Part shown: piece after piece, positions 3,395-55,332 of the stretch
Layout of the letters: each line of letters starts with the position of its first letter
How positions within the stretch are numbered: position 1 is the first letter of the stretch
Source of the DNA: Saccoglossus kowalevskii
Lineage: Eukaryota; Hemichordata; Enteropneusta; Harrimaniidae
Assembly (NCBI RefSeq): GCF_000003605.2
Contig: NW_003119928.1
Span: forward strand, 1 to 55,880
Direction of reading: 5' to 3'
Length of the DNA stretch: 55,880 nt
Made by a program: the position numbers and the translations under genes
Notes under the pieces: model-generated
Database searches by the model: none
Seen by the model: only the letters and a program-made list of their open reading frames with translations
What the model was told of the DNA's origin: nothing

Positions 3395-6300
3395 AAGTCA
3401 CGTAGCCTGTTTGAGCAGCAGTAAAATAACTCTGGGTCGAGAAAAGCAGACGGAGACACCTTTGCGGTCTCCAGTATGGTCATGTAATGAATGGGATCCG
3501 TTGGAGGAGATCATCGTGGGACGAGTGGAAGGTGCCCATGTACCACCATTTACAGAGGAAGTCCAGGTGAGCTTTAGCGGGTCAATTTGAAAAAGAGAGC
3601 TTGGTAGTTACATGTGTGCAAACCAAGTTGTTTGAGTAGTTGTTTTACAGCTTTAATTTTACTATTAACCTTAAATGCGATGACAAGCTAGACGTTGAAT
3701 GTTCATTTTACTATGTAACAACAACAACGCCACAATCAATGATCATGTCCCTGTGTAATAGTTGAACTTTGAAATTATGTTATTCACATTGCGCTAGGAA
3801 AATGTTCAATACAACTTTGGCTGATTTCATGTCATCTAGTGTAGTAATCGCACGGATAAACTGCCAGTTACGTTGCTGATTATGTAGGCATAGCATGTTC
3901 ATGTGACATCTTAAAGGCGTGCACGTAATAGTATATTGTGACTTAAAATACGGAAGGGGTCTTTTGGGGGCTACTCCGTATTCTAGAGCTGGGACCTTAT
4001 CCTCAATCAAGGTCTTATACTAGACGTCTCTGGTAGCGTGCTTAATATATAAGGGTTTCCACCACTTTATCAAATAAATAGTATAGGGATCTAGTCAATT
4101 GAACCAGCAAGGAATGGGAATATACAATAAACAAAGTCAGTGACTTGATCGATGTTGCAAGGAACACTCCACTCTCCGGTGTAAAAAATGTACAATGTTT
4201 CTTTGCTTCTGGCACATTGTCGAAACAGCTGCACTACAATTTAATCTAGTGCACTGTGGTCAGGGAGTATCGGCAACTGCACTTGTTGTTGCAAAGTGTC
4301 CAAACATGTGTGCTTTTCATTCACAAGTCAAGGACTCTGTTAACAGTTTCTAAAAGTACTTTTCACTTACAATTTATGTCACAATATGTTACGTATTTGT
4401 TTTTTCCATATGTCAATATTTGGATAGTGTAAAATGAAAGTATTTATTAAATTACTTTAATTTAATAAATTGTATGCCAAACCCAAATTTTACAGGACTT
4501 TTTAACAACATGTTTCTTTCACAACATGCTAAATATCTATATGTTTGGGCCTTTACTATGTTTCAAATGACAATTACTTGCAATTACCTGTTGTTTTTCT
4601 GCTGTGATATTCCAAATAATAAACAGTCTCACTTATTATGAATTGTGAATTACCTATTCTGACTCGGATAATCAGCAATATTACAACATTTTAGTAATGT
4701 ATTTGTTTTATGCAACATCCAAAGAACAAACAAGTGGATCTAGAATGTCTGTTTGTGAATTAACCTGTTACATTTCAGGCTATAACAGTTAAGAGAAATT
4801 GGGATTTCTTTAAATATCGCGGTGGTCAACCTTACCCTGCAGCCCACTTGGCAAAAGCAGCTGCTGAAATTGAGACGTTTTGTAACATACTAGAGCAGGA
4901 AGGAGTCACTGTTCGCCGCCCAGCGATTGTGGACCATTCCATAGAATATAAAACTCCGGATTTTCGATCCACTGGTGAGGACTGATTGTCATTAAATATA
5001 AAATGTTTTGTTCATCGGATTTTACTTTCACAAAAACGTTTCATATGTGTCAGTAATTAGTAGTATTAATTGTTGTTTCTTAGTGAAGTAACGTTTAGTG
5101 AACCAGTTGCATTTATTTGTGTGTATTCGTGGTGTCTGATGTGTGCAATGTATTAGTAGTGCTTAATATGCATGCAGTACCTGAATGATTTAAGAACATA
5201 TGCAAAACATATTCGAAAGTAATCATCAAAACAATCCCTCAAATAACATAGATTATGAGTGCAATCATTAATCCACGAAAGGTTAAAGGTTGCAGATTAG
5301 TAATAGCTACATTTGTTTTTACACGCATATTAGTAATCGCCATGTAAATATGCTACTCAGAAATGTAGGATAATGCTTCCGTTGTCAACAAAAAACTACC
5401 CAAAGATTTATCAGTGAATGTGTCGCACGTATAAAATAAAACTGTTTAATTTTACATTTTTGTTGTCTCAAGGCATGCATGCTGCTATGCCGCGTGATAT
5501 TTTGTTGGTAATTGGTGATGAAATTATTGAGGCTCCCATGGCATGGAGATCACGGTTCTTCGAGTATCGAGCCTATCGTCCACTCATTAAGGAATATTTC
5601 CAAAAAGGAGCACGCTGGACTACAGCTCCAAAACCTCAGATGTCTGATGAACTTTACGACAAGGTGTGGAATAATTATTTCTTAAAATGTCGATTTCATG
5701 TTATGTTGTATTTAGTAAAAGTTTTAATTCTAAATATATACATTGGCCTGTAACTAATTAGATTCATAAAGGATGAAGGATTTTATCAGTGTAATAATGT
5801 CCATGGTGTGTAATAACAATTCTGTCTATCTGACTGGACTAATGGCATAATGACTGGGTATTACATACTACGCCAATATCTTATGATGTTAGTATTTTCA
5901 GAAAACATTTCTTGAATTATTAATGAAAATTACATTAGTTCGAAACATTTAGACAGTTTCAGATGCGTACGTTATATAGAGCTGTATTTATTTGTGACGT
6001 TATTTCAAATTCTCCTAACCTCAACTTTTTCGTTCACAGAAATGTTTTTCACCCAGGTCTAGTGGAAATTTTCACAGATTATGATTATGAAACTGACTTC
6101 ATGTTATTAACCCTAGGAACCGTAATTATAAAGATTGCTCCAATAATAACTATAAATCATAACTTCAATAAGGAAAACTATTCATTTCGTGCAAATGATC
6201 CAAAACGCTCTACGAAGTTTTGAATACACTCTCACAACTTTCAGGGCCATTCATGAGACTTCTTATCTATACTACAGTTGTATTGTTTAGTTATTGCTCA

Positions 6301-9300: not shown

Positions 9301-11911
9301 ATATATACATTTTCAGAATTATCCAGATGAGAACGATCCCAATCGTCATAAAATTACTGATCAGGCAAAGTTTGTAACTACGGAATTTGAACCTTGCTTT
9401 GATGCTGCCGATTTCATGAGGGCTGGTCGTGACATATTTGCTCAGAGAAGTCAGGTAGGTTTATTTTGTTCGATTACTGGGTTAATTGTCCTTCCAGAGT
9501 TGAAAACAAGTATGACCTGTCAATCACCTTTATTACACGGCAATGCACACCATTTGCAGAGTTTGAGGTAATATGACAAAAACATAAAATAAAGTGTGCT
9601 GACACTTTCACTCCAGAACCGGATGGTGGCTTGTATAGACGGATATTGCTCCAATTCGATACATACATTAGGCATTTTGGAATATAGGTGCACGTCATTA
9701 TGTTTTGCAGATTGGATTTAAAGTGGTCGAGTAGCGGCCAATAAGTTTGAATAAAAACAGTTATACAGCCTTACTGACATGTCTGGACCAGTCACAAAAT
9801 TCACACGTATAATTATATATATATACATCTTTGTATACATATACACAAACATTCGTTTGGTGATCCAATTCAATATGTTTTTTTGCGAGTAGATTCAATA
9901 TGGCCGATTGGCAGCCGATTTGTTTTAATAATTCAGAAATCCATACATCAGACATATACATTGGTTTGAGACTCAATTCAAGACGGCTAAATAGCTGTTT
10001 TAATTCTGAAGAAAAATCATGGTCATTTCGAAACTAGAGTTATGTATAATCTGAATATATTCACACTTTGTACGTTATACTGACCATTATGATAACTCAA
10101 TGCACGACACTTTGCTTTGAAGACTGAATTCTAAACAAACGACTAGCGGCATTTTTTGTTTATAAAATATCTTTCTGATCTATGTCATACTTCATGATAC
10201 GATTCAAGATAGCTAAATGGCGTTCTGTGTACTTCACACACAGAAAGGTTATGGAAAGAAGTCGCTACACAACATTTTGACATCGTAACATGAAATCACA
10301 AGTGTCGCCTGTACCAAATTTGAATGTCGACCTTTGTATTACAAATGATATTGCTTCGCTGTTGCTTTTTTTCAACTACTATTCTGGGGATGAGACGCAG
10401 ATTCGTGGGCCCTTTTATTCAAACCTATTAGCACAGTGAAGATGCGATTCGACGACCTACATGTTATATATTTTTATTTATCTCCACGTTTGTTTGTCTC
10501 AAACTAGTGAAGTATTTTCCCTTAAAACAGACATATGGAAATCATTCTAAAATTACTTTTTTATTATGAAAATGATGAGAATTGTACAGCGCAAGCCTTT
10601 GTACAATTTACAGTTGCAGTTACTATAATCCTTTATAGTGGGAATTTTTATTTCGTACAGCAACAATTTTCTGAAGGCAAATTAACACTCCGTCCAGCCA
10701 GAAAAAAACGACTTTGTGATGACAGGTTGTTGATGTTATGACTGAGTTTAACATATGCAGAACTTATCAACGAGAAGTAGGCATTGATTTGTATTATTCA
10801 CTGTCAATCTATGTCAATTTGCCTTGTCATTGGGTCCAAAAAACAATGACACGCATATCTGTGTATCGTATTATTTTATTAATATTTAGCACAAATATTT
10901 TTACTAGTTTGAACACAAGCTTGCAAAATCTGATCTCATCCTTAAATTCATTCAAAACAAGAAGTGTGTACCTGGTTGTCAGAACAAATTATTGGGCAAC
11001 TACCATCTCTGAACTGCACTATACAATCATGTGACACTGTGGGTGGCGGTACTGTTTCGGTCATCGTATGTTTCTAAGCTACCATTTCATTGCTGATCGG
11101 GAACTTTGTAAACGTTTATATTTAGTTACATGAATGAATACAACTTGTCAATAAACAGGCGTGACAAAGATTGGGTCTGGTATGGGAGTATGGAAAATAA
11201 AGGCAAAGTCTTATTTACATTTACAAAATTAAATTGAACCTGTCCTTGAGGTTACCACATTTGTGTTTTTCATATTTTTGTCAATGTCTATTTTCAGGTT
11301 ACCAATTACTCTGGTATTGAGTGGCTGAAACGTCATCTTGGCGACAAGTACAACATCCATTGCTTATCGTTCGAAAATGGAAACCCTATGCATATTGATG
11401 CAACATTATTTATTATCGCACCTGGTGTTGTCTTATCTAATCCCGAAAGAACATGTCATCAAATTGATATGTTTAAGAAAGCTGGATGGACAGTTGTTTA
11501 TCCTCCATACCCGGTTATACCAGACTGTAAGTTGGTTGGATTATTCAAAAATACATTTCTTTACTTTTCTTTTAATTTAAATGATGACCGAATAGCGCCG
11601 TTGTTTATGCTTGATGTGAGAATCTCCGATGAGTGAATATTATTGTAATAAATTTACTGTTTACTGACCACGTTTTAATTACAGCTCATCCGTTATGGAT
11701 GTCGTCCAAGTGGTTATCTATGAATGTATTGATGCTGGATACCAAGCGTGTTATCTGCGATGTCGACGAAATTCCCACCGTAAAGATGTTTGAAAAGTTG
11801 GGAATTAAGCCAATTACCCTCTCCATCAGACATGCTAATTCTCTTGGAGGTGGTTTCCACTGCTGGACCACTGACATCCGTCGTCGTGGTAAAATGGAAT
11901 CATACCTATGA
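3395..11911 (+). CDS. GATM: Glycine amidinotransferase (AGAT), 6 exons, 5' end missing
   Basis: The enzyme transfers an amidino group from arginine to glycine, giving guanidinoacetate and ornithine, the first step of creatine synthesis; in vertebrates it is mitochondrial. Exons: 3395-3566, 4779-4974, 5473-5663, 9317-9454, 11298-11526 and 11685-11911. All have AG/GT borders, and the phases (0,1,0,0,1) join without a stop. Together they encode about 384 residues against about 423 in vertebrate enzymes, so only the presequence exon is missing. Recognisable blocks include [55 protein letters not shown] and GGGFHCWT. The catalytic Asp (in CFDAAD), His (MHID) and Cys (FHCW) known from the family are all present, so the gene looks functional. 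Introns range from about 160 bp to 3.65 kb. The stop follows [10 protein letters not shown]. Confidence 0.96.
5960..6120 (+). repeat. Dispersed intronic repeat, copy 1
   Basis: Within the large GATM intron, 'CAAATTCTCCTAACCTCAACTTTTTCG' followed by a CACAGATTATGA-type segment resembles 14850-14960 ('TAAATTCTCCCAACCTTAAC', 'TACAGATTGTGA'). A shorter echo lies near 48346. The match is clear but short, and no terminal structure was seen. Confidence 0.5.
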
Positions 11912-15678: not shown

Positions 15679-15841
15679 AAAGCGGGAGGGGCGTCAGCTG
15701 CGTACGCGCGGGAATTGAGTCCCAGGCGACGATAACAACACACGCTAAAAACGCAAAGGCTCATGGGTAGACACGTGTTTGTAAACTATTACACGCTATG
15801 GCCATTTGACGCATGCGCAGGTGACGACTCCCCCGCTTTAA
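15679..15841. mobile_element. MITE with TAAAGCGGG terminal inverted repeats
   Basis: The element starts TAAAGCGGGAGGGGCGTC and ends GACGACTCCCCCGCTTTA, an imperfect terminal inverted repeat of about 18 bp. The 163-bp interior is GC-richer than its surroundings and has no reading frame. TTAA-like bases at the left edge leave the target-site duplication unclear (TTAA or TA). A second copy in the opposite orientation lies at about 50469-50590, which supports a mobile family. Confidence 0.85.
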
Positions 15842-21486: not shown

Positions 21487-21726
21487 TTATACACAATTGC
21501 ACTCATTGGCGCTTATATTAGAACTTGAATACAAACAATGTTTACCATATCGACATTTACGCATCAGTCGATAGTGCAGTCGACACGTCTGATTTTTGTC
21601 ATGGTCACAGAAGTGATCATAATGACAATAAAACGTCCCATGTGTTAATGGTGTATTGTCTTCTAGCTTTGCTGTACTACGATTTTTCTTCATTTGGCTG
21701 GTAGCAACAGTCCGTGTCGTAATCAA
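21487..21726 (-). CDS. Divergent small Cys-rich protein, cluster type A
   Basis: This is a 79-residue single-exon frame; a second Met at residue 12 is an alternative start. No signal peptide or membrane segment is seen. Seven cysteines lie at residues 34, 40, 48, 58, 64, 76 and 78. The segment YRLMRKCRYG then SSNISANEC aligns with YYLLIRHCACG then PNIDTNEP at the C-terminus of the 29653-29949 protein, so it appears to be a distant member of the neighbouring family. Its upstream flank (21650-21800) is repeated at 23930-24070. The function is unknown; an inducible effector role is only inferred from context. Confidence 0.5.
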   Translation of the reverse strand: MITTRTVATSQMKKNRSTAKLEDNTPLTHGTFYCHYDHFCDHDKNQTCRLHYRLMRKCRYGKHCLYSSSNISANECNCV

Positions 21727-22479
21727 TTTTTACAACATGTAATCTTTCTTATCTTTTTAATTCGTTAGCTGATGCCATCATTTGTGTTACCGTCAAGTGT
21801 TTCTCACTTTGATGTAGATTTCTTGTCGTCCTCGTGCTTTAAATTGAATGTCGAGTTCATCGATATCATTTGAATTATGATAAGATTTAGCGGATCATAA
21901 TTTATCACAAAATTTCGAATGAAAAAAAAAACTGGTTACGGCTAACATCGTTCACTACACTCTACATTCATTGTATCGCGACTGTGAAGGGGTAACTAGT
22001 GTGGATATTCTAACCACGTACATTTCGTTTTCTGGTAGTAGTTGAACTAATAACACAACGTTTAATGAGTGAAACTAAATTAAACACTCAGATTTAGGAT
22101 ATATGTATGAGCGTTTTTCAACAAAACAATCACAATTTAATTGAACTGCAGTCGCATGTGTAGCGAATTCATACGAATTTAGATGAATTCTATTAATACA
22201 CATGTTTCAAGTGTTGCTTTCACATATAGTCATTGATTATAACTTTACTTTTGACAGGCGTCATTTTAATGCTCAAAGTAATCTGTCGAACTGTTGAAAC
22301 GCCTTCGACATATGTTGTATTGCAACGGGTCAATCTAAACCACCACCGGATGTCTTAGTGCTGTTTGTTTGGCGAATATTTCCCTTAACCGTACATTATT
22401 GAATGTTCCGATAAAATGTCCACGCAAGGTAGACAATTTTACAATTCAGTAGCTGGGATTTATGTGGGTATGGCCCAGA

Positions 22480-22585
22480 GGCGACGGTTAGAAATTTTGC
22501 ATGAGGGGCGTAGACTCTCTGAAACGCTATTTCCTGCATTTTGAGGGTCAAATTTTGCGATCGCCCCTTTAAACAAACCCCATGT
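22480..22585 (+). repeat. Dispersed 'GAGGG' repeat, copy 2
   Basis: It contains TCTGAAACGCTATTTCCTGC and GAGGGTCAAATTTTG, matching 39645-39755 closely and 2280-2440 in reverse. It ends near CATGTGCCGCCGCC, as the 39.7-kb copy ends near GGTGCCGCCG. It is non-coding. Confidence 0.65.
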
Positions 22586-23196
22586 GCCGCCGCCACTGTA
22601 TGCTGACCACGTTACAGTGAGTTAGAAATCAGCAAAGCGCCGACGACGTGTTGGTGACAAAAAATGCGGGTTGACGTACTGGTCACATGTGGCGGCGTTC
22701 AGTAGATTATAACGCATCCACGCATCTGTTTGCCAAAATATTCAGGGTATATAGTTTGATTTTACGAATTGTTGTAAGGACTTTTCGATTTGGTGAGAAT
22801 GCATACAATTTATGTTTGCGGCTATACTTGTTGCCCAAAATATACCACTCTCCTGGCGAATGTATATAAACAGAGTGATATGTACCCAATCACACAAAGC
22901 AAAGGCAAAATTGAACGTATTAATCTTTTTTTATTCGTCAAAATCTGATAATGGATATACTAGTACTTAAGTTAAATCAGTAATGAATGTTTTGAAATTG
23001 GTTCAAGTACAGAAGGTAAGATTGGTTGGTTCTTCGGTCGTCGTTTATCGCAGATTGATGTCTCATGGCGTCTTCTTTGTTAATGTCATTCTTTAAATGA
23101 TATAAAGATCATAGCATACTTGCAGACTGGTGTAGGTAGGAGTACATTATCTTCCCACAGATTCATCTCGATTAGATATGTTTAAAAAACGATATT

Positions 23197-23499
23197 TTAA
23201 AATTCGTTATAGTCTATGTTCGAACCCGGTGATTGGAACTGACCACATGCACAATAACGAATAAGTTTATAATAAGTTCTGTAATTGGTTGGACTGTAAC
23301 GCTCAATCTGGTTAAATGTACAGTTCGGGAACCGATGTATTTCCGATTGTCCTGAGTAGTAAGCGTGGTTCTCACAGGCACAGATCAGTTGTAGTTTGTA
23401 TTTCCCATTATCTTGCTCGTTAGTTTTGTATCCACAGCTCACATGGTGGTGTATCTGCACGCCGTCGGGCTGCATATGTATGTCTTGTTCATTCGCCAT
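23197..23499 (-). CDS. Small Cys-rich cluster protein B1 (100 aa)
   Basis: This intact 100-residue frame appears to be one exon, with its ATG at MANEQ. Its six cysteines (22, 40, 42, 60, 83, 85) form the family core: C-x-Y-K, then C-x-C-x-N, a single Cys, and a terminal Y-C-A-C-G. A HHH run precedes the first Cys, and the protein ends SNIDYNEF. No signal peptide or membrane helix is seen, so it is either cytosolic or secreted by another route. The two CxC motifs plus His could bind zinc or form disulfides. Paralogues lie at 26476-26784 and 29653-29949, all on the same strand. I recognise no known family. Confidence 0.72.
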   Translation of the reverse strand: MANEQDIHMQPDGVQIHHHVSCGYKTNEQDNGKYKLQLICACENHAYYSGQSEIHRFPNCTFNQIERYSPTNYRTYYKLIRYCACGQFQSPGSNIDYNEF

Positions 23500-23929
23500 G
23501 TCGTTATGAGATGTTGTTGAATTTCTTACAACGATGTGGTGTTAACAATAGTCGATATGAGTAAGATGTTGGTATTAGGGAAAAAGAGGGTATTTATACA
23601 ATTAGTTTCGCTAAAATAGAAAAGGGGTTTTTTGAGAGTACCATGATGCAAAAATCTGATGTGGTTTTGCATATTCCACGCCATCACGTGAATATTATTA
23701 TCATAATTAGCATTCGCAATCACCAACGCCCCTAATGTTAACTATACTTGGGAGTTTGGCATCTGCGTTCGAGTCAGAATATGAACGATGGTTCCCATAT
23801 AAACACTATTGCTTTAATCGAAAAGTTCCCGTTTCCTATGGCCAAACAAATATTCTCAATGTTCTTTCCGTTTCGCACTAAGATAGGCACTACAGTAACA
23901 CAGCTTTTTTAGTGTAATTAGTTAACTGA

Positions 23930-24070
23930 TGTCATTTTTAGTACATTTCTTTCATTTCGCTGTATCTACTTGTATGGAGCTAGTAACAACGGTCGCCACC
24001 ATAGTATATTACAACACTATGTCGTCACGTCTTCTTTTTTCGTTGTATTTCGTTAGCTGTTGCTATTGTC
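23930..24070 (-). pseudogene. Decayed 5' part of a type A cluster gene
   Basis: The sequence matches the start and upstream flank of the gene at 21487-21726. Shared blocks are a TTTCATTT.GCTG segment, GTA.CAACAGTC, TTACAACA and a TTCGTTAGCTG.TGCTAT segment, in the same order. The corresponding reading frame stops early, so this is probably a truncated duplicate left by cluster expansion. Confidence 0.5.
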
Positions 24071-24243
24071 TTGCTCATAGTTTGTCCGCTGCGATTTAGT
24101 GTATCCTGTCGAACTATTTTTAGCTGTATTTATACGGTTTAGGAAATAGAGGTGTGTTTGCCCAACACGCTGAAATATGACGTTAACCTGCCACCTAGCC
24201 ATTGTGGTGTCCCGGGTAGAAACTAATACGTGTGTATTGCGTG

Positions 24244-24670
24244 TTGTGTTAATATTATCAGGGGTTAAATCTCTCTCTCTCTGGGTTCTCCACACTGTCA
24301 GGGGGGAAACTCGTCTCGTCTCTCTATCTCGTCCCCTTGAGGTACGGGATCGGGAATGTCACTTATACTTTACAGTCAAATAAGACACACACAACGAAAT
24401 ACGTTTCAGCTCTCGTCTTAGTCGATCTTTTGGAGCACTCTATAAGACACAGCGCCCTGGGGAAAAGTCCCCAAGACTATATCGCAAGGCTGACCCAAGA
24501 CTCTCTTAGACTGCGTCAAGGCTCGCCCCAAGTCTCTCCAGGACTCTCGACTGTGTCTGTCGTGGAGTATTCGCCAAGACCAACTCAAACTCTCTTTATT
24601 CATTTTCAAAACTCTAACCAATTACAAAACAGTAAAAAGACTCTAGGGCGTAACCTTCAATCATAAAGCC
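24244..24670. other. GC-richer insert, possible solo LTR or element
   Basis: The base composition changes abruptly to CTCTCT-rich and GC-richer sequence, then returns to AT-rich DNA after about 24665. It contains a run of CTCTCTCT and repeated 'CAAGACTCT/CAAGGCTC' words. On the reverse strand it starts TGATTGAAGG and ends near AATATTAACACA, the TG...CA form of an LTR, with an AATAAAG on that strand near 24595. No target duplication could be confirmed and no element protein is present. Confidence 0.35.
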
Positions 24671-25180
24671 AATCACACTAAGTACTGAATACGTCATATC
24701 TTTTGATTAATCGTTCACTACATTAATAACTACGGATGTCAGAATAGCGACGGTATCTTGTAATTAGTTCCAAACCACTGAGCCAAGTTCCGTCCAAAAC
24801 TTCAAATAGGCCTACACGATGACAGATATAACACAGCAATTCGCTAATAATCAGTTAATTAAGTCGGTCAACAGATACGCAAAAACAAATTCATGACAAT
24901 ATTCACGATATTTTATCAAGTTAACCATTTCAGCTATCACGTTCATTCCTATGTCAAGACATTTCCCACTGAAAAAATGGTTTATGATTCATCATTTTTG
25001 ATAAACTGCAGTTACATCTTTGTTTTTTTTTACATTTACCTGCCAACATATTTACTCTTGGACCCATTTTATTGAATGAATAACATATCTGGTCTCGCTT
25101 GTATTGCAATAATTCATCTAAAATAATATAGTAAGCAATCGCAACATATATCGTATAGACAAAGTAAATCAAGATAGACA
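24671..25180. other. Intergenic DNA in the small-gene cluster
   Basis: AT-rich sequence with no supported gene. Confidence 0.4.
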
Positions 25181-25187
25181 GTTATAA

Positions 25188-25325
25188 AATACACCAGTTG
25201 GAATCCACTTGTCTATTTAATGGACCTGTTTATCACGTGTTTTCCCACGTGCACATTTTTAGCCGTAAAAATGGCCGTTATTTGTGCAAGCTATCAACTA
25301 CTATAATTGAATGCCAACATTGCAT
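25188..25325 (-). promoter_or_regulatory. Decayed copy of the cluster promoter module
   Basis: The plus-strand words ACACCAGTTGGAATCCAC and AATGGCCGTTATTTGTGCAA match AACACGCCAGTTGGAATTTCCCC and AATGGCCGTTCATTGTGCAA near 28590-28690. The kappaB core has mutated to GGAATCCAC here. Two CACGTG E-boxes lie at about 25236-25252. The module is about 1.7 kb upstream of the B1 start (23499). The promoter role is inferred from its repetition ahead of paralogues. Confidence 0.45.
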
Positions 25326-26124
25326 TATATGGCAACTATTTATGTGGTGGCAACAATTGTATTAGTGGACATGGTCGCAGCATTTATTGGTCAACATGAT
25401 CACACTTGTTTATTAAGTGAGTAGCTATATGCTTATAATCGGTAAACAACTGGCGAGGTGATTGGTAGAGTCAAATACATTAGATATATAGGAAATAGTC
25501 TACAAACACAAATGAAAGGAAAATTTAACTAATTTCTATGTCAAGATATGTTCGTAAATGTCGATACAATAAATGATCGATTCGTCAACTATTTAAATAA
25601 GAATTAATCCACATATTTACAACTGTTAAAATTAATATTTTCAGTACAAAAATGATTGCAACTTTTAAATTGGTGCAGGTACTGGAACTAGGAAAAGATA
25701 AGATTTCATTGTTACTGACTATCGCTGTCCCACATTTGGTTGATCACAATGATCTAATAGAGATACCCATTGAAATGATGAATATGTAATAATAAAACTA
25801 CGATTTCCAGTATAAAACATAACAATGTATAAAATTGACGAATCTTTAGTCGGGTCCCGCTTGATTGAGAGTCAGTCGCCGGGCGTATTCTCTTTCAATT
25901 TCCAGTATTGTTTACAAGTCGTTGTATAATTGCGGAGTTGTACATTTCATCAGTGTGAATGTAATTACCACGAGTGGTGTTCGTAAGCATACATTGTGGC
26001 TGGTTAAACGTGGTGAATACATTATTGTAGTTCCATTTGTTGCTATTTTGGACTTGGATTGGTCACTGTATATGTCCACAAGAGGAGATAGGTTTAAATA
26101 TGGTGTATGGTACCGATACTTTAA

Positions 26125-26330
26125 TTAAAGTTCGTTAAAATCAATATTCGGTTCTTTATACACATCACATACCCAGAAGTATGTAATAAAGTGTCATTGT
26201 TGAAGTTATAGCAGTATAATTGGTTGTATCCACGTCGGATTCTGTTTTTCCCATCCATTATGATTACAGCGTTGGTTGTTGTCACATCTGTTTTAATTTG
26301 TATATACGGTGACGATTCTCGCCGCTGGGA
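26125..26330 (-). pseudogene. Decayed small Cys-rich gene B2-psi
   Basis: The reverse strand reads KEPNIDFNEL then stop, matching QEPNIDTNEP at the end of the 29653-29949 protein. Upstream, in a shifted frame, YCYLQNYG matches YRFIQYYG, and the nucleotide match continues through TCCCATCCATTATGATTACAG. At least one frameshift and one stop break the gene, and WVCDV replaces the CACG motif. It lies about 150 bp downstream of the intact 26476-26784 copy. The long opposite-strand frames at 25865-26128 and 26224-26547 overlap it and are not taken as genes. Confidence 0.7.
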
Positions 26331-26475
26331 AGATCTATTATGGCTGGTTTGTTCTGGATTTCGTCAACATCAGATTAGTGTTCGTTTGGGAAAAAATCGT
26401 ATTTTCATGGCAACCATGGGTACAGTTCAAATAATTTTCGCATTAAATACTTTTAAACTATATTTACGTAGGTGT

Positions 26476-26784
26476 TTAAAACTCATTGTAATCTGTGTTA
26501 GATCCACAAGGCGAATCAAATCGTCCACATCGACAATACCGAATTAACGTGAACTCCGGTGAATAGCGGTGATAGCCGCATTGGTTCCCGTAGTGTTTTT
26601 CGTGGTATGTGTTGGACAAATTGCCACACACACACTCCCTTTTTAAAATTTTCCGTCTGTATTTTCCCGTGTCTGGATTACATTCAGAAATATGGTACAT
26701 CAATTTGTATCCACAATTGTTGCTACCGTGAAATTCGATTCCATCTTTTTGTGGTCTTTTTGGTGGTTCGTTTCCTGTCGTCAT
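26476..26784 (-). CDS. Small Cys-rich cluster protein B2 (102 aa)
   Basis: This intact 102-residue frame starts MTTGNEPPKR and ends SNTDYNEF. Cysteines are at 24, 35, 51, 53, 69, 84, 86 and 93; six match the family core (CGYK, CVCGN, single Cys, YCRCG) and two are extra. It is more basic than B1 (KYRRKILKR). No signal peptide is seen. A duplicated two-kappaB-site module lies about 1.46 kb upstream. The N-terminal NEPP also occurs in the first exon of the 36627-38980 gene. The function is unknown. Confidence 0.72.
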   Translation of the reverse strand: MTTGNEPPKRPQKDGIEFHGSNNCGYKLMYHISECNPDTGKYRRKILKRECVCGNLSNTYHEKHYGNQCGYHRYSPEFTLIRYCRCGRFDSPCGSNTDYNEF

Positions 26785-28139
26785 TATATTTTACCTTCGG
26801 TCCTTCTCGGTCTTCTGTGTTTGTCGTTAACGTTAATCAAATAGTTTGTACAGTGGTTTATTTATACGGGTTGCGGGAGCATGCGTAGACTACTTTAGTA
26901 CATGACAATATATATATGACATTGTTTACTGTAGATTCTACACTTCACACACATTACCTGGTTATGGTTATCTTTCTAAAAATTATTATATGAAGATGAC
27001 TGTTGCCAAAGAAAAGAAAAGAAAAAAAGCCAAAAGAAAAAACGTCTACTTTGAAACAAGATTATAAATGCGACTATTTCCATTGATCAGTGTCGTATAC
27101 TAAACATGTATAAGTGACGCATAATCCAAGGTGATTTAGACAGATTCCCCAAATGACTTGAAATGTCAGCTATTTGTATACATGTGTGTATACATGCAGC
27201 TCTTAATCGAACTGTTTTACGCTAATGGCTTCAAACGGAGAATTAAAAAGAGAAGTGTATGTATCAAAAAAATAAAAAGTCATCGGAAAGTAAAAATGTA
27301 TTACATCATACAATCTGATGTCACTGTGGAACTGATTCTGAGACGCATAAGTAATTGGGCAAACTGAACAACTAGAAATAATGAGATGGTTGACACAGGT
27401 AAAGATTGCGATTGTGTGGCAGCCAATCACAGCATTATGTTGTCAATGTCGAAAATTTGGACTTTCCCAGTTATACTAGTAGTTTCAATATGGCAATTTA
27501 CACAATACAATATATCATGTGTTTGTTATTATTTGGACAGGACAATGGCGACATGATTGATGGTCAAACAATTTGGTACAGTTTGTCTTATGTGAATGAA
27601 TTTTGTTATGTTCATAAGATTACCATCAACATGATATGCACGATTGTAGTGGGATTTAAGAAGAATGTTAAGTCCTAGGCATTTCTTAAACACAACTAAT
27701 CATATTAATTGGCACTGCTCCTAGTTGGATATGGTATGACATTATATTTGAGAAGACTATATTATTTCATTCATTTTTAGTCCAACTTATTAATTTCTGC
27801 TATCTAAACTGTCACATTCGATACAGAATGCTCATATATCGGTATCCAGGATTTAAATATTAGTTACCAATTTTAAATTTCCTTTCATTATGTTTAATTT
27901 AGTGCTAGTTGTTCGTACTTTGAATTTGTAATGTTAGCACACAGCAAATAAACATGAACCGTTGTTGGTGCTCATATTTTCTTTGTTTGTGGCAATGTTA
28001 CCTATGTAATTGACTAAATTTTCTTCCATGATTATGAAGAAATCGGTATTTATAGCATTGAGCTGTGCATTATTTTAAATTTAAATTATGAAGCTTTGTA
28101 TTTTTGCATAAAGACGGGGAACACGCAAATTGTTACACC

Positions 28140-28400
28140 AACACTCTACCTCTTAAATTGTATTCAATATCGTCTCTATTATGTGCAGCATGGTTTGTTA
28201 CTATTTCAAGTCGTTATTTCATAAACTTGAGAAAATAATGGGACTTTCCGTGCAACGTAAATAATCTTAAAAATAAACCAGTTGGAATTTCCCATATATG
28301 TGGTTGTTGATTGGATGTTGCTTGCCACGTGATAACAACTATTGTCTTCTGAAAAATGCAAAGTCATTAAAATAGGCGCTTACTGTTAACTAAAATGGGA
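28140..28400 (-). promoter_or_regulatory. Two-kappaB promoter-like module, copy 1
   Basis: GGGACTTTCC at 28240-28249 is the classic kappaB form, and GGAATTTCCC lies at 28284-28293 (44 bp start to start). They are followed by ATTGG (an inverted CCAAT box) and CACGTGAT. The block is duplicated at 30820-31090 with the same order and spacing while the sequence between has drifted, so the sites look selectively kept. It lies upstream of B2. No transcription start was identified. Confidence 0.6.
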
Positions 28401-28597
28401 TTTACGCCTACATTAGATTGATTGAAGTATTTGCCCTACCCTGAACTCTGACGTCTGCTATGAATCATATAATCGCCAACCAAAAGAAATAGTAGCCATG
28501 CCAATATTGTAACGTATAGTCTGGTGACTGTAGTCTAAATCTTGAAATCACTAAGGACTTGTTCTTCTAAGTATGCAGTTTCAAAAACACGCCAGTT

Positions 28598-28607
28598 GGA
28601 ATTTCCC
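28598..28607 (+). promoter_or_regulatory. KappaB-like decamer GGAATTTCCC
   Basis: A third exact site upstream of B2, within CCAGTTGGAATTTCCCCAC and followed about 65 bp on by AATGGCCGTTCATTGTGCAA. The same arrangement, with a mutated site, occurs at 25197-25290, so this is a second module type. Confidence 0.5.
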
Positions 28608-29143
28608 CACTTCACATGAGAAAAAAGAATCTTTTCGTCATGCGCAAACTGAGGAGCTGATACAAAAATGGCCGTTCATTGTGCAACTACTACGATTGAA
28701 TGACTTTTAGGACACGCTGATTTAGTGTGTCAGTCTTAGCCTACAAATTTCACTTGCAACAACTAACAGGATTGCACAATTAACAAATTTAGTTTGGTGC
28801 ACCTAAATTTGACCAACGCAATAATAAAATGACCGTTCATCTTGCCACCCGTCAACAAATCTAACACATAAGTCATTTACTGTCGTGACTATTATTTTCA
28901 AATTCGTGGGCGAGGTCACACTATGTATATTCATTGAGTAAACATATGTTTACGAGGTGTTCGGATGGTGGATAGTGAAATGCAGTGGGTAAAAAAATGG
29001 CGTACCTGTGTGACGCGATACAGATTAAGAGACATATACACTCTAACACTAATTCACTCACTCATCCAATACCATGCACCCACCCATACTTAGAATTATA
29101 CAAATTTGTAAGTTTAACCAACTCGCTCTATTCGTTAAAATAC

Positions 29144-29144
<1 letters not shown>

Positions 29145-29190
<46 letters not shown>
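29145..29190. repeat. (TA)n microsatellite
   Basis: Twenty-three TA dinucleotides in an uninterrupted run between B2 and B3. Confidence 0.98.
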
Positions 29191-29191
<1 letters not shown>

Positions 29192-29652
29192 CAATAGATA
29201 ATCAACACACCAATCAGTTAAATTCGCACAATCAACGTATTTAATACTACTACAAATAACTACTTTTAATATATAAATTGGATACAACGACGAGAGTAAG
29301 TGGAACTTGGAAAATATATATTTCTATTTTGTTGACATGTTCAATACATGTGGTTAACCACAGTGATCTACCAATACAAGTATATGAAAATCCCAAACAT
29401 CTGAAATGATGAGTGTTAAGATAAATAAGCATTGCAGATTCGGTGTCTCCATGCGTCTTCTCTAGCAATTCAATTTTACTTGTTTATAGATAGTTTTATA
29501 CTTGCAGCGTTGTACCACGTACATACTTTGAATATGATTTCGAAGAGTGATGTTAGTAGACATGCTTGCGACATATGTAACGTGTTAAATACTTCGTTGT
29601 CGTTCTCTGTGTTGTTGGTTTGTTTGTTCTCTTCAGGCGGCAAACGCCTTAG

Positions 29653-29949
29653 TTAAGGTTCGTTAGTGTCAATATTCGGTTCTTGGTACTCTCCGCACGC
29701 GCAGTGGCGAATGAGTAAGTAATAGGTTGAGCGCTTGGTTTGATTATAGCGAAAGATCTGATAGTAACCACACGACGAGGACTTGTGATTCAGTTCTTTC
29801 CATCCAGTATAGTAAGAGCGATTGTCACATACGCACTTCTGTTTTAGTTGATGTGAACAGTTTCGACTAGTCTTTTTGTATTTACAGTTAACATCATGGT
29901 GTAACTCCATTCCATGGGGGAGGTTATATATTCCCGGTTCATTCTGCAT
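29653..29949 (-). CDS. Small Cys-rich cluster protein B3 (98 aa)
   Basis: This intact 98-residue frame starts MQNEPGIY and ends EPNIDTNEP. Cysteines are at 22, 31, 39, 41, 60, 83 and 85; six match the B1/B2 core. Conserved residues outside the cysteines are HH before the first Cys, YY-x-G after CxC, RY in the middle and the YYLLIRHCACG block. Spacing is almost identical to B1, so these two are closer to each other than to B2. A two-kappaB module lies about 1 kb upstream. No signal peptide is seen. The family and function are not recognised. Confidence 0.72.
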   Translation of the reverse strand: MQNEPGIYNLPHGMELHHDVNCKYKKTSRNCSHQLKQKCVCDNRSYYTGWKELNHKSSSCGYYQIFRYNQTKRSTYYLLIRHCACGEYQEPNIDTNEP

Positions 29950-30119
29950 TTCGAAAATGTAACGTTATTCGTCAACTGTACTCGCAATTAGGTGTTATTA
30001 ACAATTCCTATTGATAGCAATGCAGTAGGTTTGGAAGAAAAAGTTTGATATTTATAACATTGCCGTTGCTAAAAATAAACTATTGTACAAAGTTACTTCA
30101 GAGCATATATCATTATCAA

Positions 30120-30332
30120 TCAGGGACATTTACAGCTAGTAGAACGTTTATTTTCATTTTCATCGAATAGTCTTCCATTGTTATGGTGACAGTATTGACT
30201 CTGTGATTGGTTAACCGACGTCATTTGCTGGACAAGTGAGACCAGCATGTGAAAGTATGATGGAATTTTCCTACCACTCCAACCACTGTGGTCACTGTCA
30301 GGAGTCACATAATACTTCAAATAAAGGAGCAT
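30120..30332 (-). CDS. Possible type A cluster relative (short)
   Basis: This frame gives 70 residues from the first Met, or 34 from an internal Met ending at 30224. The end QYCHHNNGRLFDENENK then SCKCP resembles FYCHYDHFCDHDKNQT and the CNCV terminus of the 21487-21726 protein, but the central Cys block is missing. It may be a truncated type A gene or a remnant. It sits just upstream of B3, giving the order A-type then B-type seen in part at 23-24 kb. Confidence 0.35.
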   Translation of the reverse strand: MLLYLKYYVTPDSDHSGWSGRKIPSYFHMLVSLVQQMTSVNQSQSQYCHHNNGRLFDENENKRSTSCKCP

Positions 30333-30819: not shown

Positions 30820-31090
30820 TTGTGAATTTAATAAGTGTATAAACGAATTATAATGAATAATGCTGCAAAATGGACAGCATTGTTTTTCACCATCTCTAGT
30901 CGTTATTCCAAAAATTCGACAAAATATCAGGGAATTTCCATGAAACGTCAACAATTTAAAAATAAACCATTTGGAATTTCCCTTACCTATGTTTGTTGAT
31001 TGGATGTTGTTTACCACGTGATAATAATTATTATCTTCTAAGAATACAATTTCAGCACACTCATTTTAAACTACGTTCAGATGTCTAGAA
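30820..31090 (-). promoter_or_regulatory. Two-kappaB promoter-like module, copy 2
   Basis: GGGAATTTCC at 30930-30939 and GGAATTTCCC at 30973-30982 (43 bp apart) are followed by GATTGGATGTTG and CACGTGATAA, the same layout as 28140-28400. It lies about 1 kb upstream of the B3 start. The matching spacing in two diverged copies is the main evidence for function. Confidence 0.6.
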
Positions 31091-39640: not shown

Positions 39641-39755
39641 AAATGTTGAAAAGTAGGCCCTCCGAAACGCTATTTCCTGTATTTCGAGGGACAAATTTTG
39701 CTGACAATCATAACATGTTTTCAGGCCCCCCCCCCCTCCTCGGTGCCGCCGTCAT
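39640..39755 (+). repeat. Dispersed 'GAGGG' repeat, copy 3
   Basis: CCCTCCGAAACGCTATTTCC and GAGGGACAAATTTTG match the 22.5-kb copy. They are followed by a C-run and GGTGCCGCCG. Non-coding. Confidence 0.65.
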
Positions 39756-48824: not shown

Positions 48825-49470
48825 ATAATAATAATAAGTATGCATTTATATAGCGCCATAAATCCAAAATTAAATGTTTATAGGCGCTTAACAATATAAA
48901 AGAAATAAAATTATAAACAAACAAAATAAAAACTACTGAGTTTCAAAAGTCTGTCTAAAAAGATGAGTTTTAAGTTTCTTCTTAAAAATGTCAATATTGT
49001 CTGAGAGTTTGATATGTAGGGGTAGTTCATTCCATAAGGCAGGAGCAGCATTGCAAATGGCTTGATGACCGAAAGATTTGGTACATGTATTAGTTTTTGG
49101 AACGTGGAGTGTAGACTGCGGGTGGGTTTGTACGATGAAACAAGTTCGCAAATGTAGGATGGCAGGGTGTTGTGAATTGCACAAAACGCGATTAACATGA
49201 TCTTGAAATTAATGTGTTGTTGAACAGGAAGCCAGTGTAGGTTGTATAGAACTTCAGTGATATGGTCAAATTTCCTAGTCTTTGTAATGAGGCATGCCGC
49301 TGTATTTTGAACAAGCTTGTGAATATTTGTCTTGGCAATGCCGTAGAAGAGACTGTTTCTATGGTCAATCCTTGATGTTACAAATAAATGTACTAAATGT
49401 TTTGTAGTTGCATTAGTTAGGTACTTCCTGATGGAACTAATATTGCAGATATGAAAGTATTTATGCACAC
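48825..49470 (-). mobile_element. 5'-truncated CR1-type LINE, 3' end with RT fragment
   Basis: On the reverse strand a 185-residue frame, with a frameshift partner at 48933-49184, carries the end of a non-LTR reverse transcriptase. Visible pieces are SRIDHRNSLFYGI, HWLPVQQHINFKIMLI, then in the other frame APALWNELPLHIK and FKKKLKTHLF. After the stop comes a 3' tail with AAGCGCCTATAAACATT and a (TAT)n run near 48830, typical of such elements. The frameshift and missing 5' part mark it as dead. Confidence 0.9.
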
Positions 49471-50468
49471 GAATAAATACTCCATATCATCTAAAGTTAT
49501 CAGATATGTTTTGTAGGCGACGTATGAAATGCAGTATACAAAATGCAACAATTCAATGCAAATACTGCATTTATACTATCAGAAGTACATGTAAACCAGA
49601 AACTGTGTTTATTGTATACAAGATTAAACTTTGACAAGTTATGATCATAGACCCGCAATTTAAGACTTTTCAGCAACTATCATAATACATGCTTGATTTT
49701 CAACCAATGATTCGCTTACATGTCTTTGCAAAAATTACAATGGTGTGGTCAAATAATGATTCAGTATACAACAAATGCAATTTTTGGTTGATATATGCTT
49801 CAATTGGAGATGCACTTCTAATAGAGTGAATACTGTAAATCCTAGGGTAAATTTTACGTTAAAGAACAACATGGTATATAAACACAGAGTCACGGGCGGA
49901 GTCTATTATACAAGTGAATTGGCCCTCACCTACAAAAACAACGATAACTAAAAGCTCCACAAAAACATGAGAAAAAGTCTGTTAGACCCTTATATTCTAA
50001 GTTTATTAGAACACATGCTGGATGTTGGGATTTTAGGTTGTAAGATACAATTCAGCCATGGAGTAGAAAAATAATTCTGGTTGACATGCATAATCGTAAC
50101 TACTGATTTTGGTTCATGCTTTGGTTCATATGATAAAAACTTAAATTAAATTTGGCAGATGATACAGCTTTAAGTTCAATCTAAAATAATGCAACATTTA
50201 CAAATATAACCAAAGAATCAGTGAAAAAAAAACATGTACATGTATTTAATACATCAGGTCAGCTTGTAACCCACGCAAATGTTTACATTGAGATAAAGAA
50301 AAAAAAAACAGATTTTTTTCATAATTTTGTTCTACTTTGATTTAGTCACTTAAAAGCTAATGTGTAAAAAAATATTAAAGCTACATGTACAAGGGGCATC
50401 AGCGAGCACAAGCTTTCAGACATGTATTTCATGAAAAATTTAATTACATGAGTGCCATAAGGATAGTT
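49471..50468. other. Intergenic DNA, no gene supported
   Basis: AT-rich without supported frames. Confidence 0.4.
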
Positions 50469-50590
50469 TAAAGCGGGGGAGTCATCACCTGCACATCCAT
50501 CAAATGGTCATAGCGTGTCATTGTTTAAAACAAGTGTCCACCCATGAGCCTTTGCGTTTTCAGCGTCGACTCAATTCCCACACGTGCACA
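50469..50590 (-). mobile_element. Truncated TAAAGCGGG MITE, second copy
   Basis: TTAAAGCGGGGGAGTCATCACCTGC opens this copy, followed by CAAATGGTCATAGCGTGT, CACCCATGAGCCTTTGCGTTTT and GACTCAATTCCC. These match 15841 back to about 15710 in reverse orientation. The far terminal repeat is missing. Confidence 0.85.
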
Positions 50591-51196: not shown

Positions 51197-54100
51197 CTAC
51201 GACGCTTTCTGCTTCATGGTATTGTCCTCCTTTTCTGAGTCACTCTCACTGCTACCACTGTTACTACTGCTGCTACTGTCATCATGCCCATCACTCCCAG
51301 TTGTGATTTTTTCAGTGTTAGCTTTCTGTTGAACAATGACATATGCATGAAAACCAAGTCTTCTTCAATTAACATACGTGATCTATACATCTTCATAAAA
51401 GCAAATTGAGGCAATGACCAACAGCAATCATAGCATAAGGTTTATAAATAAAGTAAAAAGTAGTGAAATTAACTTTTAACAGTCCTCATTTTCAAACTGA
51501 TTTTGGCAGTTTTTTTGACAGATGATCTCTAACTTAGGGTGGGGTTTGACATAACAGACAATAAACACATTCTGTGTTGGTGGACGCAATAAATGCACTG
51601 ATTGTCTGAAAAACTAGGTTATACATCAAGCCATAACTACTAAGCTGACTAAATATAGAAGATATAAATTGTCTGAATTTGGAAGGGGGGGTGAATTTTA
51701 GAACACAATATATAACTGAAGACTTCACAAAGAGTCTGGATAGTGGATTTTTAGTTTTATGTTATCTTATTTCTTAGGTAACCCTCACAAATGCATGAAT
51801 CAACAAATTTTTAGACTCACTTATTTACCTACAACAGTATTCATAAAAACTTTGGTCAATACGTGTCAATAAAGTTGATGAACAAAAACTCAAAGAATGA
51901 GCCTGAGTACTAAATGGGCAATATACCATATCACTTGAGAGGTGAACTTTCAAGCTTGGCTTTTTCTTTTATTTGCCAAAATGTCTGCTTTATACTCTTT
52001 TTATTCAGTCATCAGAAGTGAAATTGTTGAAATACTAATTATATGTATTTCACAAAACAGTATTCTGATATTTCAATCAATAACATTTTTTTAGTATTGA
52101 TGATATTATTCGCCGGATAATATACCGTTTCTCACATTAACACTATTCAGCCATTGCACCACAAACAGACATCTATATTAACACATAACCTGCTAATAGC
52201 TTTGTACATATATAGCAAAAATAAATGGCATCACTGTAGATTGAAATTGAAGAACAGACAACTTCCTATCAACTTACCAAAAATACTGCCTCATATGAAT
52301 CTATCTCAGCATGACGCTGTAGAGATTTCAACACTTTCTTCAAGTCACTTTGAGTGTTTTCGTAGTCAATACTTCTTCGGGGAGGCTCCAATGATAGTTC
52401 AATTTCAAGTGCTTGTTTCAGATAGTTGTGAGCTATATTATACAATCTGTCACTCTTCTCTGTGGGCATGCAAAAGGAATAGCACATCTATTTACAAATA
52501 CACATAATTTCAACACATACTAAATCATATCAGACCATTTCACACATACCAAAAAATGCATGCATTGTGCACTGAATTATTAAAATATGACTTACTTTCT
52601 CCATAGAAACATACAAGTAATGTAAGCACATTGTGCTTCTAAAGGTGCAACTGTTTCGTTCAGTGCATCAAGGGAAAATCTTTACACAGGAGACAATTAA
52701 CAAAATAAATAAAAGTCATGTATATTTCAGGAAATAATTTTTTCATGAGAGAATAACAATTTAAGTTGTATTATGGCAAATTATATTTGCAGAAGTCAAA
52801 CTTGTTGAGTCAAATGCTGACAAAGACATTCTGCATTCAAGACATATAGACAAGATGGTTTTGTCTTTTCAAGTACACCAAATTCATGGAGATTCATGTT
52901 TGCTAACTTTAACAGGTTGTATTGTACACAGTGTTTGAAACTAAGGCAGACCCTTGGGTTCGAGGCATAGAACTTTACAGTAGGGCTGACAAGATCAAAA
53001 GCCTGCTTTTTGAATTTTCTGATGACTTAAAAAATGATAAATACTATTCAACACGACAAGCATCTTTCCATTTTTATTTTTGTTCATATATTTTTTGGGT
53101 CAACAACATTCAAGCAGGCCCTTGATCTGCAGGCCCTAAAGGCCATCAACCTTTTGACTGACTGATCACAGCTCATAAATATGCACATCAGATACATACC
53201 TCTTTCTTCAGCACTCTCCTCTTCGGCAGCTTTATTCCTGGCTACATCACCTTGACTCAGATAAATAGAACCAACAAAATAGACACTTCTGGCTGTATCT
53301 GGATGTTCCTTGCCTAGGTATTGCATTCTGATCTCCATTGCTTCCATTGCTAAGGTCAGTGCTTTATCGAATTCTTTCATCTCTGTGTAAGTCAGTGCCT
53401 TGTTCTTGAGCACAACTGCAGTTTTGGGAAAGCCATAGATCCTCATATCCTTCTCCAGAATAATAGCTTTGTCATACTCAGCAAGAGCTTTGTTGTAAAA
53501 ATCATTACCATCTTCTTTATTGCCATCCTCATGTGCTTTGTTTCCCATCCAGTGATAGCATGTACCAACATTTAGTATGAATGTTGGCATGTCTAAATGA
53601 ATTCCCTTGGTAGCCACACTATACAGGACTTCCACTGCTTGCTTGTGGTATTTCAGCGATTTATCAATCTCTTTAATAGAGAAATAAGAATGGCCAATTG
53701 CATTGAGATTCCTTGCAACATAAGTGTGTTTCTTCAGCAATTTTTTTCGTGTTTCCAGTGACTTTTTAAGCATCTTGATTCCATCCTGCACTTCACGAAT
53801 CATAACTAAAGATCTGCCTTGTACATACTCGCAAGCTGCTAAGGTGAGGTCATAGTTGCTGCTGGATTCACCCTTTGAAGCAAGATCTGCTAAGATTTTG
53901 AATGGCTCTTGTAAAATCTGCAGTGCTTTATGAGCATGGGCTAGTGGCATGTAACTGTCTGCTTCTAGAGCCCTCATGAAGCAATACTTAATCTGCTTCC
54001 CTTGCTTCTTTGTAATTTCTGCAAAATTATGGAATAGCTCAATTCGTCTGTTAGGACCTAGGTAGTGCTCAAACAAGAGGGTAATGGACATTCTCTTTCT

Positions 54101-55332
54101 GTGATCTTTTTTCGACTCTATCTCTGGCACTATGCCAAGCTTCACCATCAATTTCAAGTAGTGATCAAGATTGGTTCTGTTATTTTTTAACACGAGCTGC
54201 ATGACGGAATGGTAGTCAGTTTCAACTTTGGATGCATTCTGGCACAACAACTGATCATAGTAATTAACATAATTTCTCTGCCCTTGATCATAACTGTTCT
54301 GCAAGTTCTCATCTTTTGCCATTTCATGAAGGAAAGACCGCACTAGAGGATGCAAACTATACTTCTCGACTTTATGCAGGCGAAGATTCCGGAATTCAAC
54401 AGTAGGTTCAGAATTGACAACTTTCCATAGATTGACAAGTGGCTGAATGATTTCTAATTTGGTCATGGCTTCATCCCCAGTACCTATCACACCTGTAGCT
54501 GCAGCCTGGTCTAACGTGCTTGGGAAAACAGAAAGCTTCAACCATGCACGCTGTAGCTCATCAGGCAATGCTTGGAAAACATACTGTAAACACTGATCAA
54601 CAGGTTGATATCTATATGTCAGTGTTTTCATCGTTCTGCCCTTCTCTGGATTAAGTTGCATGATTATTTCCTGTGCAGTGACACCACCATCAACCAGACG
54701 ACTAGCGATGATTCTCAGGGCTAATGGCATGTTACCCGTCAATGTGGCTAACTCAGCTGCATCAGAATCAGGGACTCTGTCTGTACCTGCTAATTTCTGC
54801 AGCAATGCAATAGACTCGTACTCCTTGAACGGTTTTAACTCAACTTGTTTGAAAGAAAGGGAACCAAATCGTGCTTCTCGTAGAGCATACCGCGAAGTGA
54901 TCACTACTTTCAACCGACTGTTTTTCACTTCAAGTAATTCGTAGAGGGTATTGTGGAAATCATCACATGTATAGCTTCCAGGTTCCAATATGTTATCAGC
55001 GTTGTCAATTAGCAATATTGTATCTAAAAAATACAGTACATATGAGAATGTGTGTCAGATAAACTGTACTATTAATAGCATGCATGAAAACCAGATGACT
55101 CAAGTGTATATGCTGATTGAAGGGCAGTAGTCGTCTCACTGCGCTCATTCCACAATCCAATGTGCTTTTCTAATGGAAATCACAAGTATGAGGTTCGACC
55201 TGGGTGCGACTAGCACTAATTACCACTTGTGACTCCTTCGATACCTTCTAAACACCTAACAAAATACCTTATTAAAGCTTGGTAACGTCTCAGTTTGTAC
55301 TCGTTGATCTGCGCAACAGTCAAAGTCGCCAT
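51197..55332 (-). CDS. NB-ARC/TPR (STAND) protein, four exons, no P-loop seen
   Basis: Proposed exons on the reverse strand: 55332-55245, 55023-53200, 52459-52278 and 51325-51197. All have AG/GT borders and matching phases (1, 1, 0), giving 740 residues. Exon 1 starts MATLTVAQINEYKLRRYQAL. Residues about 31-40 read TILLIDNADN, the kinase-2/Walker B motif, followed by VVITSRYALREARF (sensor region), TGNMPLALRIIASRL (GxP-type motif), a winged-helix segment and a SLHPLVRSFLHE stretch. Residues about 330-680 are tetratricopeptide repeats. The tail is acidic and serine-rich (DDSSSSSNSGSSESDSEKE). STAND proteins act as oligomerising switches, often in immunity or cell death. No Walker A loop lies in exon 1 or in the 221-bp intron. 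Exon 1 is less certain than the other three; if it is wrong, further 5' exons lie outside the window. Confidence 0.85.

Follow-up and report, generated by a model that had tools for sequence, protein, structure and literature searches.

Introduction

The zinc finger of WRKY proteins has its ligands spaced as Cx4Cx22-23HxH, the CDGSH pattern consists of three cysteines (Cys) and one histidine (His), with two of the Cys arranged as CxC, and in metallothioneins about a third of the residues are Cys. Here we compare with these systems, and with the small Cys-rich SCRiPs of corals, a tandem family of small proteins encoded by three genes (c1, c2 and c3) of Saccoglossus kowalevskii. The genes lie within a stretch of 55,880 nt, referred to below as the window, which is positions 1 to 55880 of the 127,249-base contig NW_003119928.1 in a genome of 572 Mb. 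A common zinc finger and a common fold of four strands have been proposed for WRKY, GCM1 and FLYWCH; PMC4350883 reports this proposal and itself finds the families too divergent to align.

Each of the c1-c3 proteins carries two units of the general form H-x4-C-x(n)-C-x-C. The reading that we favour, at about an even chance, is that they form a tandem family of small intracellular proteins, each with two beta-hairpin His-Cys-Cys-Cys metal sites that are probably occupied by zinc.

Like the WRKY finger, unit 2 of c1 and of c3 has the spacing ligand-x4-ligand-x22-ligand-x-ligand around a possible beta-hairpin. However, the ligands of the family are H, C, C and C in place of the C, C, H and H of WRKY, a WRKY signature is missing, and the spacing agrees in two of the six units, the loops of the other four having 14 to 26 residues. 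The WRKY-GCM1/FLYWCH fold has a sheet of four strands that carries zinc at one end; the low-confidence models of the present family (pLDDT of 45 and 57) show hairpins only. None of these families was among the Pfam matches listed at E values up to 10 for the three proteins and the six units. The likeness to WRKY is a resemblance of spacing only and not membership. Unlike metallothioneins, c1, c2 and c3 have 6 Cys in 100, 8 in 102 and 7 in 98 residues, respectively.

Results and Discussion

Three paralogous genes

As shown in Table 1, c1, c2 and c3 are intact single-exon genes on the minus strand. A preliminary description of the window had reported three such genes for proteins of 98-102 residues, and this was borne out by the open reading frames (ORFs), which are mutually homologous with pairwise protein identities of 45% (E = 5e-27), 38% (E = 3e-16) and 32% (E = 4e-9). 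The three proteins can be aligned from end to end with the ATG at one and the same alignment point in all of them and, judged by these alignments, they are true paralogues.

Six Cys in the order C, CxC, C, CxCG are common to c1, c2 and c3, as had been described, and so is the C-terminal N-(I/T)-D-x-N-E. The block YY-x-LIR-x-C-x-CG, which had also been ascribed to all three, was found in two of them, and c2 has FTLIRYCRCG instead. The three-row alignment contains 28 invariant columns, and these include all eight proposed His/Cys ligand columns (p = 1.7e-5 for a random draw from 100, a value that ignores the above-average conservation of Cys and His). The mass of the proteins is about 11.8 kDa. 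Both c2 and c3 are basic, with a charge of about +4, and c1 is slightly acidic (-2), so charge-driven binding of nucleic acid is not implied for all members.

An internal duplication of a His/Cys unit

Comparison of the two halves demonstrates that a unit of roughly 40 residues has been duplicated in tandem within each protein, a feature which the preliminary description missed. The unit has the pattern [EQ]-x-H-x4-C-[GTK]-[YF]-x(n)-L-x3-C-x-C, with an extra residue before the His in one of the six units, and H, C, L, C and C are invariant in the six-unit alignment. The halves of c1 read QIHHHVSCGYK...YKLQLICAC and EIHRFPNCTFN...YYKLIRYCAC, and those of c2 read EFHGSNNCGYK...LKRECVC and EKHYGNQCGYH...LIRYCRC. 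When the profile of the first halves was aligned locally with the profile of the second halves (three rows each) by hhalign, the score was 31.56, with a probability of 90.7 and an E value of 1.3e-6 for the one comparison. Shuffle controls reached at most 17.7 (400 column shuffles) and 19.4 (400 shuffles with the Cys columns fixed).

A six-frame scan of the window with H-x4-C-x(8-30)-C-x-C gave seven places, six of which are the units of c1, c2 and c3. In the rest of the contig the same pattern was found at two places, in stretches without other family features, the second of which was judged by profile and tblastn only.

Both AlphaFold2 models place a beta-hairpin between H-x4-C and C-x-C, and hairpins are all that they draw, at low confidence. 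The strands in these low-confidence models are 23-30/33-48 and 60-69/74-89 of c1, and 16-24/29-37 of unit 2 of c3. Such a hairpin would set H-x4-C at one foot beside C-x-C at the other, so that the four side chains of a unit could coordinate a single metal ion, in all likelihood zinc, giving two ions per protein. The paired sites may act as a rigid small platform for nucleic acid or another protein.

Metal binding and a disulfide fold had both been left open in the preliminary description. Metal is favoured here because the arrangement H-x4-C...CxC is invariant and occurs twice per protein, because a leader is absent, and because the number of Cys in c3 is odd: of seven Cys, at least one must stay outside any intrachain disulfide. 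We infer that a reduced metal-binding protein fits better than a disulfide protein.

The same residues could also be grouped across the units. The CxC of unit 1 and the H-x4-C of unit 2 would together make one CDGSH-like site of three Cys and one His, CxC included, in an iron-sulphur or redox protein. These are the right kinds of ligand, and the gap between the two parts (12, 10 and 13 residues) is less variable than the gap within the units. We nevertheless consider such a site very unlikely. In CDGSH proteins C and H come in the opposite order, the family is without the CDGSH sequence, and no CDGSH family was among the Pfam matches listed for the three proteins and six units. Moreover, two equivalent sites are what the internal repeat would lead one to expect.

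Upstream box and absence of a leader

None of c1, c2 and c3 has a hydrophobic leader, in agreement with the earlier statement that signal peptides are lacking. The best 15-residue Kyte-Doolittle window within the first 40 residues is below 0 in all three; this test is one of hydropathy only and applies to the ORFs as read. Upstream of each gene lies the octamer TATAAATA (Table 1), which probably functions as a promoter TATA box. Outside a repeat at 1-509, the perfect octamer has 11 occurrences on both strands of the window, and three of the 11 are those before c1, c2 and c3. The octamer appears to have been kept, because the upstream sequence of c2 otherwise aligns poorly with those of c1 and c3. 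The repeat at 1-509 is a 31-bp tandem repeat of 16.5 copies with nine exact TATAAATA on the minus strand.

In their small size, their six common Cys, their duplication in tandem and the rapid divergence between neighbours, c1-c3 resemble typical families of secreted or extracellular disulfide proteins, such as effectors and matrix or venom-like peptides, and they could be of this kind if a leader were carried on an upstream exon or if the proteins left the cell by an unconventional exit. The coral SCRiPs are one case. According to PMC2652719 they are, like c1-c3, small, Cys-rich and multi-copy, but they have a signal peptide, a product of 41-48 residues and a Cys pattern ending in CCC. Unlike such secreted Cys-rich peptides, whether defensin-like or SCRiP, the ORFs of c1-c3 show no hydrophobic leader by hydropathy. 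Secretion is unlikely, in our estimate, on several further grounds. The protein homology between the copies begins at the ATG, the conserved TATAAATA begins only 82-107 nt upstream of it, and an in-frame stop precedes the ATG by 14 (c1), 2 (c2) and 5 (c3) sense codons. In addition, an invariant His stands at fixed spacing before one C in each unit, and c3 has seven Cys.

Selection on the reading frames

The preliminary description had proposed the ratio of dN to dS (omega) as a check on the family. The pair c1/c3, the sole unsaturated one (dS is saturated for both c2 pairs), gave dN of 0.39-0.45 and dS of 0.78-1.64 by three methods, and omega is about 0.25-0.50, that is, below 1. Differences at codon positions 1, 2 and 3 numbered 33, 33 and 45 for c1/c3 (n = 111), 33, 37 and 59 for c1/c2 (n = 129) and 38, 40 and 54 for c2/c3 (n = 132). 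Pooled over the three pairs, which are not independent, the third-position excess has p = 1.5e-4, and for c1/c3 alone p = 0.019 by simulation.

One neighbour of the genes is plainly decayed, and the three frames might themselves be functionless relics that are open by chance. This is most unlikely. All three frames are intact even though the aligned codons of c1 and c3 share only about 62% identity; when neutral evolution without indels was simulated 20,000 times to the divergence of this pair, the two frames both stayed open in 0.075% of the runs. The third-position excess, the invariance of all eight His/Cys and the retention of TATAAATA also argue against chance. On these counts c1-c3 are under selection as proteins, now or until recently.

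Searches for relatives and further copies

We use orphan for a family that is unmatched in Pfam, NCBIfam, PHROGs, PDB and viral and prokaryotic contigs only, a set that holds no eukaryotic protein or transcript collection. No Pfam family was matched at its cut-off by c1-c3 or the six units (matches are listed up to an E value of 10, but the HMMER filters remove most of those above about 0.1). No convincing match was obtained in NCBIfam (best E = 1.8) or PHROGs (best E = 0.16), and nothing was found in PDB at E values up to 10 with the three-row profile or with c2 and c3 singly. The sole PDB match of the unit profile, to Nop10 (E = 1.6), was taken as chance. Among viral contigs 41 stretches had the pattern and among prokaryotic genome contigs 72, and none was confirmed. 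The earlier statement that no known family comes to mind therefore holds for these libraries, and no strong match to a known domain was met in them. We regard c1-c3 as an orphan family of ordinary scale, with its novelty not proven. Word searches of open-access papers returned nothing on the family, and no claim of unpublished status rests on them.

Below the thresholds of Pfam, the strongest match was that of residues 31-56 of c2 to the zinc domain of paramyxovirus V protein (PF13008), with 20.1 bits (E = 4.5e-4), and unit 1 of c2 alone matched it with 18.5 bits (E = 0.0014). This candidate was rejected, the curated cut-off being 25 bits. Further sub-threshold matches, each to one member and taken as chance, were PSV_ORF131-like (c3, E = 0.083; its unit 2, E = 0.024), NCC-H (unit 2 of c1, E = 0.046) and DUF1922 (c2, E = 0.85).

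Genome searches with c1, c2 and c3 at E values up to 1 gave nothing beyond these three genes, and distant copies can be missed in them: the c3 query did not return c2, nor did the c2 query return c3. As a DNA pattern, LIR[YH]CxCG was found at four places in the 572 Mb, the three genes and one place without other family features, and a backward control pattern was found at two. No clear copy was present in the other 71 kb of the contig (27 kb of it N). One weak tblastn match of c2 there (E = 0.29) coincides with one of two motif matches in this part and has no family features around it.

The genes are single-exon and lie within a repeat-bearing stretch, and this, together with the c2 match to the V domain, would also be compatible with short zinc proteins captured from a transposon or other mobile element or from a virus, either as its remnant or as its cargo. 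We hold this to be improbable. The V domain is matched by only one of the three members, over a stretch with a Cys that has no counterpart in c1 and c3, and no relative was confirmed in viral contigs or PHROGs. Moreover, in the genome searches made, clear copies occur at this locus only, and the duplicated unit includes the 3' flank, as described below.

Points against the two proposed metal sites

A number of results weigh against reading c1-c3 as intracellular proteins with two metal sites each. The AlphaFold2 models have a mean pLDDT of 45 with the three-row alignment and 57 with the six-unit alignment, both of which are poor, and the fold and the grouping of ligands are not established by them. 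Known zinc fingers are among the Pfam families that the proteins and units did not match at the cut-off. As for the repeat, hhalign in global mode gave the two halves a probability of only 20.6, two of nine single-sequence comparisons of halves were no better than shuffles (half 1 of c1 with half 2 of c2, and half 1 of c3 with half 2 of c2), the alignment of the c1 halves with each other starts out of register, and the loop from C to CxC differs in length across the units (14 to 26 residues). The estimate of omega rests on the single pair c1/c3, for which a binomial test does not make the third-position excess significant on its own (p = 0.067). Finally, an upstream exon carrying a signal peptide is possible for c1-c3.

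Tandem duplication and a decayed copy

As shown in Table 1, the 3' flank of c3 is alignable with that of a decayed copy, and the 3' flank of c1 can also be aligned to both by eye. The duplicated unit thus reaches beyond the stop codon, and the alignment of the flanks demonstrates that the genes multiplied through tandem copying of the DNA. It would then be single-exon genes, each with its own TATA box, that spread by tandem duplication. A repeat pair at 28186-28361 and 30875-31049 is 81% identical, more alike than the gene copies nearby, and is perhaps a short interspersed element.

Table 1. Positions of the family genes and associated features in the window.
Feature	Position	Strand	Description
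c1, intact single-exon gene	23197..23499	-	100 aa; modules H17-x4-C22-x17-C40-x-C42 and H55-x4-C60-x22-C83-x-C85
c2, intact single-exon gene	26476..26784	-	102 aa; modules H19-x4-C24-x26-C51-x-C53 and H64-x4-C69-x14-C84-x-C86; extra Cys 35, 93
c3, intact single-exon gene	29653..29949	-	98 aa; modules H17-x4-C22-x16-C39-x-C41 and H55-x4-C60-x22-C83-x-C85; extra Cys 31
Putative TATA box TATAAATA of c1	23591..23598	-	starts 99 nt upstream of c1 ATG
Putative TATA box TATAAATA of c2	26859..26866	-	starts 82 nt upstream of c2 ATG
Putative TATA box TATAAATA of c3	30049..30056	-	starts 107 nt upstream of c3 ATG
Decayed copy (pseudogene), closest to c3	26121..26362 (about)	-	ATG lost; similarity divided between reading frames
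Pseudogene 3' flank	25875..26050	-	67% identity over 184 aligned positions, E = 2.8e-6, with 29445-29622
c3 3' flank	29445..29622	-	partner of 25875-26050
Possible second relic	21490..21748	-	fragments in two reading frames, one C-terminal-like and one N-terminal-like; chance level

The decayed copy had been placed near 26125 in the preliminary description, and its loss of the ATG and split frames agree with that account; at its 3' end it is 75% identical to c3 over 56 nt. Two divergent relatives had also been proposed, at 21487 and 30120. A family profile was scored on 2580 open stretches of the window (at least 15 codons) and, as a control, on 1963 such stretches from the remainder of the contig. 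The ORF at 21487 was the best non-family match in the window (E = 0.084; tblastn E = 0.29), next to an unrelated stretch with an E value of 0.11, and the control gave a better non-family match (E = 0.036), so that a value of 0.084 is attainable by chance or by scattered relics. The fragment at 21680-21748 is collinear with this ORF and has a profile E value of 9.8. The 21487 ORF may be a relic, although it is not distinguishable from chance, and its claim as a divergent relative is unproven. The ORF at 30120 was rejected, as it had no profile match even at an E value of 100. Of the repeated duplication and loss that had been described, three intact copies and one relic stand, and the two proposed relatives lend no support. 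The control match is an open stretch at 105021-105236 of the contig (plus strand) with CVC and part of the later block, and it may be a chance match or a distant relic on the opposite strand.

Other elements of the window

On the plus strand, a glycine amidinotransferase (GATM/AGAT) gene has exons at 5418-5750 and 11250-11908. The solved glycine amidinotransferase in PDB was matched by the stretch at 5418 with an E value of 7.5e-32 and by that at 11633 with one of 1.8e-34, with no Pfam match at an E value of 0.1, and the stretch from 11250 is presumably another exon of this gene. A long open frame on the minus strand (53087-55054) has TPR repeats (TPR_12, E = 7.9e-19) and matches kinesin light chain in PDB; its N-terminal half, for which there was no Pfam match, resembles the ATPase part of an NB-ARC/NACHT-type receptor. 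Another minus-strand frame, of 191 codons (48914-49486), had no Pfam match at an E value of 0.1 and presumably resembles the end of a LINE reverse transcriptase.

Two kinds of dispersed repeat were also noted. The sequences at 15742-15841 and 50468-50566 form an inverted pair, 87-92% complementary and 35 kb apart, and are probably two copies of one element. A sequence of 45-49 bp occurs three times, at 22510-22558, 39653-39701 and 2302-2346 (88% and 87% identical, the last inverted).

Significance

Orphan families are common, and few of them have an anatomy that hints at how they work. It is conceivable, though we think it unlikely, that an unrecorded unit of H-x4-C, beta-hairpin and C-x-C arose, was duplicated within a gene, and that tandem copies of this gene later accumulated in a single animal lineage, which would give a new small zinc fold without an ancestor among the known fingers. 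The internal duplication and the eight invariant His/Cys turn a family of unknown function into a cheap question, namely whether two zinc ions are bound. If they are, c1-c3 would be a small case, easy to study by experiment, of a metal site that was duplicated inside a rapidly evolving gene.

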